Origin: Sphingomicrobium lutaoense
Lineage (GTDB): Bacteria > Pseudomonadota > Alphaproteobacteria > Sphingomonadales > Sphingomonadaceae
Direction: 5' to 3'
Assembly: GCF_014195685.1 (NCBI RefSeq)
Contig: NZ_JACICF010000002.1
Coordinates: forward strand, 248,001 to 312,000
DNA: 64,000 nucleotides
Shown here: positions 10,844 to 14,499 of the stretch, piece after piece
How the letters are laid out: every line of letters begins with the position of its first letter
How positions within the stretch are numbered: the stretch's first letter is position 1
The notes under the pieces: model-generated
Told to the model about the DNA's origin: nothing
Databases searched by the model: none
The model's input: the letters and a program-made list of their open reading frames with translations, nothing else
Made by a program: the position numbers and the translations under genes

Positions 10844-11167
10844 ATGTCCATCCTTCCTCCCATCTTCGGACCGCGCGAAGCCGGCAATGATCTGATTGCC
10901 TTCCTTCGCCGCCGCAGCCGCGAACAGACGATCGGCGCGATCCTCGCGGTGCTCGTCACGGTGATCATCGTGCTCGTTTTCTTCATCGATCCCAAGGTGA
11001 ACACCGCGCCGGGCGCGACGATCACCTATGTCGAAAGCTGGGACGCCGACCGCAGCGACGAGGAAATCATCGCGCAGCAGCAGGCCGATATGAAAGCCGC
11101 CGAGGAAGCGCGCCGCCTGCGCCAGGAGGAATATCGCGAATTGAGCAACCAGCTGGGCATTGAATGA
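10844..11167 (+). CDS. Small single-pass membrane protein heading the riboflavin genes
   Basis: A 107-residue protein with a charged N-terminus (LRRRSREQ), one transmembrane helix at about residues 29-48, and a charged, probably coiled-coil C-terminus rich in Glu, Ala, Gln and Arg (about 70-105). I do not recognise a family. It overlaps ribD by ATGA, so it is the first gene of the rib operon. TATCTA ends six bases before the ATG and there is no Shine-Dalgarno, so the mRNA may be leaderless. A link to flavin metabolism is only suggested by position. Confidence 0.7.
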   Translation: MSILPPIFGPREAGNDLIAFLRRRSREQTIGAILAVLVTVIIVLVFFIDPKVNTAPGATITYVESWDADRSDEEIIAQQQADMKAAEEARRLRQEEYRELSNQLGIE

Positions 11168-12138
11168 GCGGAAGCGCCGTCCGCTGGATGGGCGAAGCGA
11201 TCGCGCTCGGGCGCTCGGCGCTCGGCGAGACCGCGCCCAATCCCAATGTCGGCTGCGTGATCGTCCGCGATGACCGGATGATTTCGGGCGGCGCGACCGG
11301 GCGCGGCGGACGGCCCCATGCCGAAAAGATCGCGCTCGACCAGGCGGGCGAGGCAGCGCGCGGCGCCACGCTCTACACCAGCCTCGAACCCTGCGCCCAC
11401 CGCAGCGACCGAGGCCCCACCTGCGCCGCGATCATTCCCGAAGCAGGCATCGCCAGGGTGATCATCGCCACCGAGGATCCCGACCCGCGCACCGCGGGCG
11501 AAGGCATCCGCGCGCTTCGCGATAGGGGCCTGAGCGTCGAGGTCGGCGCCTGCGCGCAGCAGGCGCGTGACAGCATGGCGGGCTATTTCATGCGCGTCAC
11601 CAAGGGGCGCCCGCGCATCACGCTCAAGCTCGCGCTCTCGATCGACGGCAAGATCGCGCTGCCCTCGGGCGAATCCAAATGGATCACCGGCGAGGATGCG
11701 CGCGCCCATGTCCATCTCGAACGCGCCCATGCCGACATGATCCTCGTCGGCCGCGGCACGCTGCGCGCCGACAATCCCTCGCTCGACGTGCGCCTGCCGG
11801 GGCTCGAGGAACGCTCCCCCCGCCGCGCGCTCCTCACCCGGGGCGATCCGGTCGAGGGCTGGGAAACGCTGTCGAGCCCCGAACAGGTCTATGACCTCGA
11901 CGGCGTCAACGAACTTCTGATCGAAGGCGGGTCGGGCGCGGCCACCGCTTTCCTCAAGGCCGACCTCGTCGACCGCATCCTCATCTACCGCGCGCCGCTG
12001 CTCATCGGCGAAGGGCGCAACAGCGTGGGCTATATCGGGCTCGACGCGATTGCCGATGCGCATGGCCGCTGGCAGGTCAGCGACGGCAAGGCGCTTGGCA
12101 TCGACCGGCTGGAAGTCTACGAGCGCGTCCGGGGATAA
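11164..12138 (+). CDS. ribD: Bifunctional pyrimidine deaminase/reductase
   Basis: A 324-residue RibD catalysing the second (deaminase) and third (reductase) steps from GTP to riboflavin. The deaminase has APNPNVGCVIV (about residue 24), the zinc-site HAEKIALDQ and LEPCAHRSDRGPTC. The reductase begins near residue 140 (KLALSIDGKIA) and ends with a typical LIEGGSGAATAFL segment. It is somewhat shorter than E. coli RibD. The start overlaps the upstream stop. Its TAA stop is in the same frame as ribE and four codons before it. Confidence 0.93.
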   Translation: MSGSAVRWMGEAIALGRSALGETAPNPNVGCVIVRDDRMISGGATGRGGRPHAEKIALDQAGEAARGATLYTSLEPCAHRSDRGPTCAAIIPEAGIARVIIATEDPDPRTAGEGIRALRDRGLSVEVGACAQQARDSMAGYFMRVTKGRPRITLKLALSIDGKIALPSGESKWITGEDARAHVHLERAHADMILVGRGTLRADNPSLDVRLPGLEERSPRRALLTRGDPVEGWETLSSPEQVYDLDGVNELLIEGGSGAATAFLKADLVDRILIYRAPLLIGEGRNSVGYIGLDAIADAHGRWQVSDGKALGIDRLEVYERVRG

Positions 12139-12150
12139 GGAGGCAGCACC

Positions 12151-12753
12151 ATCTTCACCGGCATCATCACCGACATCGGAACCGTCCGCAGCGCCGAGAA
12201 GCGCGACGACCTGCGGCTCGTCATCGGCTGCTCCTACGACATGGGCTCGGTCGATCTGGGTGCCTCGATCGCCTGTTCGGGCGTCTGCCTCACGGTGGTC
12301 GACAAGGGTGGGGACTGGTTCGCGGTCGATGTCAGCGACGAGACCATCGCCCGTACCGCCGATGCGCTGTGGCACGAAGGCGCACGCCTCAATCTAGAAC
12401 GCGCGCTCAAGGTGGGCGATGAACTGGGCGGGCATATCGTCACCGGCCATGTCGACGCGGTGGCGAAGATCGTCTCCGCCGAGGAAGTGGGCGGCTCGAC
12501 GCGGCTCGCCATCGAGGCTCCGCGCGTGCTCGCCGGCGCGATCGCGCCCAAGGGCTCGATCACGCTCGACGGGGTCTCGCTCACCGTCAACCATGTCGAG
12601 GACCAGGCCGAGACGACCCGCTTCACGGTCAACCTCATCCCCCATACCGCCGAGCACACCACCTTCGATCAAGTCAGCGAAGGCCGCTCGCTCAATCTCG
12701 AGATCGACGTGCTCGCTCGCTATATCGACCGGATGCTCGCCAACCGGATGTGA
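12151..12753 (+). CDS. ribE: Riboflavin synthase alpha chain, apparent AUC start
   Basis: A 200-residue riboflavin synthase, which dismutates two lumazines to riboflavin. It has two lumazine-binding repeats with SGVCLTVV and GHVDAVAK in the first and DGVSLTVNHV in the second. The family begins MFTGII; here the matching codons read ATC-TTC-ACC-GGC-ATC-ATC from 12151, and AGGAGG lies seven bases upstream. No ATG, GTG or TTG occurs in frame between the ribD stop (12136) and ATG 12241, which would remove the conserved first 30 residues. I therefore take AUC as the start, or suspect a G-to-C change or sequence error. Confidence 0.85.
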   Translation: MFTGIITDIGTVRSAEKRDDLRLVIGCSYDMGSVDLGASIACSGVCLTVVDKGGDWFAVDVSDETIARTADALWHEGARLNLERALKVGDELGGHIVTGHVDAVAKIVSAEEVGGSTRLAIEAPRVLAGAIAPKGSITLDGVSLTVNHVEDQAETTRFTVNLIPHTAEHTTFDQVSEGRSLNLEIDVLARYIDRMLANRM

Positions 12754-12799: not shown

Positions 12800-14080
12800 A
12801 TGTCTATCCAATTGATCGAACGCGTCACCGCCCTCGTCGAGAAAGGCGAGATCAGCCGTGCCGGTCTCGCCCGCGCCGCCGGGCTCCATCCCAACAGCCT
12901 GCGCAAACTCGGCTCGGAGGAATGGAATCCCACCGCCGACACGCTCGGCCGCCTCGAAAAATTCCTCGGCAAGAGCGAAGTGCTCGTCGGCGCCGAGGAA
13001 ATCATCAACGAAGCGCGCAATGGCCGCATGTTCATCCTCGTCGACGATGACGATCGCGAAAATGAAGGCGACCTCGTCATTCCCGCGCAGATGGCGACTC
13101 CCGACGCGATCAATTTCATGGCCCGCCACGGGCGCGGGCTGATCTGCCTTGCGCTCGGCAAGGAACGGGTCGACCAGCTCGGCCTCGAACCGATGGCGCG
13201 GGTCAACCGCGAAAGCATGGGGACCGCCTTCACCGTCTCGATCGAGGCGCGCGAAGGCGTCACCACGGGGATCAGCGCCGCCGACCGCGCGCGCACCATC
13301 GCGGTCGCCATCGACGCTTCTAAGGGCAGCGACGACATCGTCACTCCGGGCCATGTCTTCCCGCTCACCGCGATGCCGGGCGGCGTGCTGGTGCGCGCGG
13401 GCCATACCGAAGCGGCGGTCGATGTCTCGCGGCTCGCAGGCCTCAATCCCTCGGGGGTGATCTGCGAGATCATGCGCGATGATGGCACGATGGCGCGGCT
13501 CGACGACCTCATCGATTTCGCCGCGACCCACGGCCTCAAGATCGGCACCATCCGCGACCTCATCGCCTACCGCCTCAAGAAGGATCATATGGTCGAGGAA
13601 GTCGCCGAAACGCGCTTCAATGCCGAAAGCGGCGCGGCCTGGACCGCGCGCGTCTTCCGCGACAAGGCCACCGGCGCCGAGCAGATGGCGCTCGTTCATG
13701 GCGCGATCGACCCCGACAAGCCCACGCTGGTGCGGATGCACAGCCTCGATCTCTTCACCGACGTGCTCGGCGAGAAAAGCGAGCGTTCGGGGCTCCTGAA
13801 GGGCGCGATGCGGATGATCGAAAAGGAAGGCGCGGGCGTGCTCGTCGCGCTCCATGCCGCTTCGCCCGGCTCGCTCAGCCTCGCCACCAACTTGCGCTCG
13901 GGCAAGCCCGCGCAATCGAGCGAGGCGATCCGCAGCTATGGCGTGGGCGCGCAGATCCTCGCCGCGCTCGGCATCCATGACATGATCCTTCTCTCGAACA
14001 CCCGCCATTCGCCCGTCGCGCTCGACGGCTACGGCCTCGCGATCGTCGAGGAACGACCCATCGAAACGGGAGAAGCCTGA
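12800..14080 (+). CDS. ribB: HTH-fused DHBP synthase with cysteine-less GCHII-like domain (RibBX type)
   Basis: A 426-residue three-part protein. Residues 5-57 look like a Cro/XRE helix-turn-helix ([19 protein letters not shown] then [14 protein letters not shown]). Residues about 62-265 are 3,4-dihydroxy-2-butanone 4-phosphate synthase, with the acidic loop [20 protein letters not shown] and GHTEAAVD. The C-terminal part resembles GTP cyclohydrolase II, but the zinc cysteines are absent: the stretch is [20 protein letters not shown] where GCHII has a CxDxG/CDCG-like signature. This matches the RibBX variant known in Proteobacteria, so GCHII activity is not expected. No Shine-Dalgarno precedes the ATG. 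Confidence 0.9.
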
Positions 14081-14499
14081 TGGCGCGCATCCTGATTGCC
14101 GAAGCCCGCTTCTACGAGGAGCTGAACGACCAGCTCCTCGCCGGCGCCCGTGCGGCGATCGAGGCGGCGGGGCATGAACATGAAACGATCACCGTGCCGG
14201 GCGCGCTCGAACTGCCGGGCGCCATCGCGCTCGCCTCCGAAAGCGGGCGCTACGATGCCTATGTCGCGATTGGCATCGTGATCCGCGGCGAGACCTATCA
14301 TTTCGAAATCGTCGCGGGCGAAAGCGCGCGCGGGCTGATGGCGCTCACCATGGACGGGCTGGCGATCGGCAACGGCATTTTGACGGTCGAGAATGACGCC
14401 CAGGCCGAAGTCCGCGCCAATCCGGCCAAGAAGGACAAGGGCGGCGAAGCGGCGCGCGCGGCGCTGGCAATGCTCGAACTGCGCGAACGCTTCGCCTAG
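14080..14499 (+). CDS. ribH: 6,7-dimethyl-8-ribityllumazine synthase
   Basis: A 139-residue lumazine synthase, condensing the RibB and RibD products into lumazine for RibE. It shows [16 protein letters not shown] near residue 38, [14 protein letters not shown] near residue 66 and NGILTVEND near residue 98. Its ATG overlaps the upstream TGA (TGATG), so it is translationally coupled to the ribB fusion. No ribA is present in this operon, so GTP cyclohydrolase II must be encoded elsewhere. The stop shares a CTAG with the convergent SOUL gene. Confidence 0.95.

Follow-up and report, generated by a model that had tools for sequence, protein, structure and literature searches.

In Escherichia coli, infC and pcnB both start at AUU. 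Noncanonical starts are also used in Staphylococcus aureus, which belongs to a different phylum from the organism analysed here, Sphingomicrobium lutaoense. According to the available text of the S. aureus report, infC of that species starts at AUA, and further noncanonical starts belong to ccpN (AUA), cvfC1 (AUU) and citZ (AUA), the last being reported for one strain lineage (PMC13009471). In Borrelia burgdorferi, the AUU start of pncA (bbe22) was shown by biochemistry, genetics and a crystal structure, as described in the accessible part of that study (PMC13398362). For Caulobacter, the available sections of the mapping study state that about 0.25% of mapped coding sequences use a near-cognate, non-NTG start codon and that 24.6% of starts have a Shine-Dalgarno sequence (SD) (PMC4117421). 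An E. coli N-terminomics survey, in the portion available, lists one ATC among 17 upstream starts and describes forms of lumazine synthase (there called ribE) that start at ATT (PMC13245402). The available portions of these Caulobacter and E. coli surveys contain no riboflavin synthase case (PMC4117421, PMC13245402), and no riboflavin synthase with an AUC start was found among the literature matches listed.

The stretch of DNA analysed here (the window, 64,000 nucleotides) comes from a 2.08 Mb genome that is assembled into two contigs and has a listed completeness of 100%, and it holds the one RibE locus found in that genome. All genes of the cluster lie on the forward strand. The deaminase/reductase gene ribD (positions 11164 to 12138; 324 aa) scores 260.3 bits against TIGR00326 (cut-off, 156.35) and ends in TAA at 12136 to 12138. 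The riboflavin synthase gene, ribE, occupies 12151 to 12753 (200 codons and a stop) when counted from its proposed start codon, an ATC at 12151 to 12153 that would be read as formyl-methionine. The next cluster gene, ribB (12800 to 14080), encodes a protein with a helix-turn-helix at its N terminus and a GTP cyclohydrolase II-like domain at its C terminus, and the next rib gene is ribH, for lumazine synthase (14080 to 14499; TIGR00114, 99.6 bits; cut-off, 84.6). Read directly from the window, the ribD-ribE junction is ...CGG GGA TAA GGA GGC AGC ACC ATC TTC ACC GGC ATC ATC... The SD, TAAGGAGG (12136 to 12143), which we take to be complementary to the usual 3' end of 16S rRNA, overlaps the ribD stop codon and lies 7 nt upstream of the ATC. 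Within it, AGGAGG spans 12138 to 12143 and is followed by the spacer CAGCACC (12144 to 12150), just as an earlier, sequence-only reading of this DNA had placed it. The frame from 12139 stays open for 204 codons; TAA is all that stands upstream in frame, and the first in-frame NTG 3' of the ATC is an ATG at 12241 to 12243, 30 codons on, so that a gene caller confined to NTG would trim 30 residues off this RibE. RNA structure at the ribE start showed nothing unusual (z = 1.29). With a probability of roughly 0.86, we propose that ribE is translated from the AUC at 12151 with formyl-methionine, the strong SD offsetting the codon mismatch and termination of ribD feeding re-initiation.

RibE scored above the curated cut-offs of NF006767 (228.7 bits; cut-off, 155) and TIGR00187 (180.3 bits; cut-off, 156.6) and contains two lumazine-binding repeats (two PF00677 Lum_binding places in Pfam). 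The NF006767 profile aligned over positions 1 to 192 from the ATC, and position 1 also fell on the ATC in TIGR00187 and in NF009566, the latter with a score below its own cut-off. Nine rows of solved structures were compared. Chain residue 1 corresponded to the ATC in six riboflavin synthase rows, one of them a single domain; the remaining three rows were two lumazine proteins, in which residue 2 fell on the codon after the ATC, and one fusion construct. The residues FTG directly follow the start codon in all 69 genus genomes with a readable ribE start, and FTGIITDIG follows it in all three genomes with ATC. In codons 2 to 30, dN was lower than dS against three members of the same clade, only modestly so against one of them, G197 (0.20 and 0.30), and change at the protein level was somewhat faster in these codons than in codons 31 to 60.

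The genus sample comprised 71 genomes, 70 of which were matched; one (G184) gave no match and another (G164) lacked the 5' end, leaving 69 readable starts. These were ATG in 63 genomes, ATC in three (the window genome, G000, together with G197 and G189), TTG in two (G174 and G145) and GTG in one (G162). The comparison with related genomes that had been proposed from the sequence thus returned ATC in 3/69, and the proposed AUC start was supported by its recurrence in G197 and G189, by the SD and by the fall of profile and structure residue 1 on the ATC. Starts were also read in 87 genomes (27 and a further 60) belonging to other genera of the same family, part of 143 matched and picked by score and strand rather than at random; 84 had ATG, two TTG, one GTG and none ATC. 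A pattern scan of public genomes that included Ile-FTGIITD gave eight confirmed loci, all with ATG; G197 and G189 were absent from its results and near records may be omitted, so it has little bearing on the genus.

The assemblies of G197 and G189 are both listed as 99% complete (3 and 4 contigs), and the letters around the ATC differ among the three genomes. The ribD stop begins 17 nt (TGA, G197) and 7 nt (TAG, G189) before the ATC, which places ribD in another frame in both. The 93 codons that lead from the preceding stop to the ATC in G197 contain no in-frame NTG, and G189 has an upstream in-frame TTG (-17) and ATG (-28) that overlap ribD and might conceivably serve as starts. The lack of a usable NTG start at the conserved N terminus accordingly holds for the window and for G197, with the TTG and ATG of G189 lying inside ribD. 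In the nearest relative, G166, the ribE start is an ATG sharing bases with the ribD stop (TAATG), an arrangement also seen in G077, G149 and G161.

A FastTree tree of RibE, RibD and RibB from 69 genomes, with the start column excluded, united G000, G166, G189 and G197 in one clade (support, 0.941). The tree of RibE alone lacked this four-species clade and placed G189 apart from G000 and G197. A second FastTree tree, of 4,320 columns of neighbouring genes from six genomes with G154 and G172 as the only outgroups, recovered the four-species clade in 57/60 bootstraps and G189 with G197 in 60/60, and joined G166 to G000 in 29/60 and to G189 plus G197 in 29/60. The three species sharing ATC are 0.28 to 0.43 substitutions per site from one another. 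Since their clade includes the ATG-starting G166, ATC either arose once, in the ancestor of the four species, and was later lost in G166, or arose on two occasions; in this reading the ATC start has persisted across at least one speciation event (G189/G197).

An exact SD match of 5 nt or more, at a spacing of 4 to 9 nt, was found in 3/3 ATC genes, 8/63 ATG genes and 1/3 GTG/TTG genes (Fisher P = 0.0036, ATC versus ATG). The anti-SD duplex energies of the ATC genes were -12.2, -8.9 and -8.6 kcal/mol, against a median of -6.0 for ATG genes (P = 0.005); as the ATC cases are related by descent, both P values overstate independence and are indicative only. Ranked by duplex energy among all 69, the ATC genes stood 3rd (the window ribE, -12.2), 7th and 10th, and the GTG/TTG genes 1st, 9th and 12th, but with just one of the latter three passing the match test, SD compensation is no strict rule. 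The spacings of the three ATC genes in the anti-SD register were 7, 6 and 6 nt. Within 42% of the window genome, where 621 of 757 gene models have an NTG near the coding boundary, one of the 621 had an 8-nt SD match and five reached -12.2 kcal/mol. Given that an SD accompanies only 24.6% of Caulobacter starts, an SD of eight bases would be conspicuous for an alphaproteobacterium. The occurrence of ATC, ATG, GTG and TTG at the same codon with differing SDs in close relatives offers a natural experiment on an SD paying for a weak start.

We considered whether the ATC might be an ordinary ATG that was misread or misassembled, or that has mutated in this strain alone, as the sequence-only reading had allowed. 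The change is of one base, and 63 of the 69 relatives do have ATG, but ATC stands at the homologous codon in three species, in G197 and G189 amid different surrounding letters, which makes sequencing error very unlikely; the strong SD, the intact frame and the finding of a single RibE locus also argue against it, and we regard this explanation as highly improbable. Even less credible is a true start downstream at 12241, which is the first in-frame ATG and would give a shortened RibE. The cost of 30 residues, correctly foreseen in the earlier reading, falls within the range aligned to the six riboflavin synthase structure rows, and the conservation of FTG after the start codon in 69/69 genomes and the excess of dS over dN in codons 2 to 30 are likewise at odds with such a start. 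The least plausible explanation is that readthrough of the TAA, yielding a RibD-RibE fusion, is the sole or main source of RibE. That ribD and ribE share a frame in the window, with the TAA and four codons between them, had been rightly described and would permit a fusion, but the fusion drawn from it is not supported, because ribD is in another frame in G197 and G189; the SD, moreover, points to initiation. That the two genes share a frame in the window is most likely coincidental. The best reading of the sequence remains that the near-cognate AUC is a genuine start rescued by the SD.

Whether such a start has a role is a separate question. It may be real but neutral, tolerated since sufficient enzyme is made with the help of the SD and of coupling to ribD, and we lean slightly toward this version of the AUC reading. 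G166 of the same clade has ATG, and TTG or GTG starts of ribE occur in 3/69 genus genomes and 3/87 genomes of other genera; set against neutrality, ATC is common to three species at the distances given above, though two gains are possible. It is rather unlikely, by comparison, that the clade practises start-codon control, in which the AUC and the strong SD would tie RibE output to the level of IF3 and to ribD translation and, together with an AUA-started infC, form an IF3-sensitive set in a lineage in which the search for an FMN riboswitch found none. A start-codon throttle on ribE is possible, and drift is at least as likely, given that TTG and GTG have also come to serve as ribE starts.

For initiation at the AUC, the ordinary initiator tRNA would place formyl-methionine at 12151, and the eight-base SD would compensate for the mispaired third base of the codon. 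Since the SD overlaps the ribD stop codon, ribosomes finishing ribD would arrive, and could be held, next to the AUC and be able to re-initiate; this coupling probably also helps to rescue the start. We infer initiation at the AUC, re-initiation coupling and a yield of RibE per message below that of an AUG. The available text of a study of IF3 reports that high IF3 inhibits noncanonical starts and SD-less re-initiation and that re-initiation in E. coli rose more than threefold when an SD was added (PMC2268962). The available part of the S. aureus report puts expression from AUA and AUU starts, relative to AUG, at about 10% in one medium, with ccpN reaching up to 30% in another (PMC13009471).

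Like infC (AUU/AUA), ribE would have a near-cognate AUH start with an SD; unlike infC, it has no known link to IF3, and its AUC occurs in 3/69 genus genomes as against ATA in 6/6 read for infC. It resembles E. coli pcnB in being a housekeeping gene with a near-cognate start, whereas pcnB uses AUU and encodes a polymerase. Among the S. aureus cases, as far as the available text describes them, ccpN and cvfC1 share with ribE a strong extended SD and conservation between species, and citZ, like ribE, encodes a metabolic enzyme (PMC13009471); those cases differ in using AUA or AUU and in having ribosome profiling or reporter proof, the ribE AUC being a candidate read from sequence. As in the accessible account of pncA/bbe22 (PMC13398362), translation must begin at the near-cognate codon for the enzyme to retain its conserved N terminus, although that codon is AUU in pncA/bbe22 and AUC in ribE. 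The E. coli ATC start, in the available survey text, gives an extended form and is not a sole start as proposed for ribE (PMC13245402). The earlier description of AUC and AUU starts as known mainly for infC was too narrow, given the reported starts of Borrelia pncA and S. aureus ccpN, citZ and cvfC1 (PMC13009471, PMC13398362). Metabolic genes with AUC as the only usable start are rarely documented, and ribE would add one to the short list of such starts.

In the six genus genomes read, infC (in the window genome, L140, G000:C2:75044-75532) seems to have an ATA start preceded by GGAGA, as judged from the conserved position and the SD, suggesting that near-cognate starts are used in this lineage; in the window genome an ATG lies 4 codons after the ATA. 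A screen for near-cognate starts over 864 kb (42%) of this genome, with 757 gene models, flagged nine candidates (earlier versions, 3 and 4), and the sole SD match longer than 6 nt was that of ribE. For one other candidate, a GGDEF-EAL gene (L146), comparison with four relatives showed an upstream ATG that G166 and G197 also have at a similar position; the remaining seven were assessed only by eye. A genome-wide relaxation of start choice was considered and rejected with 9/757 models flagged, but the screen, having missed infC (stretch L227), gives only a weak negative.

As to an initiator tRNA with a different anticodon, among 42 typed tRNA places three anticodons were CAT and none was GAT, though the elongator tRNA-Ile(GAT), which must exist, is also missing, and only the CAT genes were checked for initiator features. 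Both tRNA-Ile(GAT) and tRNA-Ala(TGC) were absent from these 42 places and from two further ARAGORN hits (L158, L229), possibly having been lost with the rRNA operons in assembly. In the initiator tRNA (L266:1501-1577), A29:U41 replaces the first of the three anticodon-stem G:C pairs, as it does in all 20 readable genomes of 28 searched (6 without a match, 2 with partial matches); because A29:U41 occurs in and beyond the genus, it does not by itself explain the ATC.

Elsewhere in the cluster, the N-terminal helix-turn-helix of RibB is of the Cro/CI type (PF01381, 23.4 bits; cut-off, 23) and accompanies ribB at each of the 64 genus loci, out of 69, where that gene is present. Searches for an FMN riboswitch in the window and in the six genus genomes in which infC was read came up empty, and with none found the helix-turn-helix could regulate the rib genes. 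A second RibE-like match was seen in G214 (L129), beside a ribD-like stretch on another contig and out of register at its start. In the GTP cyclohydrolase II-like C terminus of RibB (13598 to 14059), the cysteine cluster usual in such domains seems by eye to be missing; a second, stronger GTP cyclohydrolase II locus is present at G000:C2:212108.
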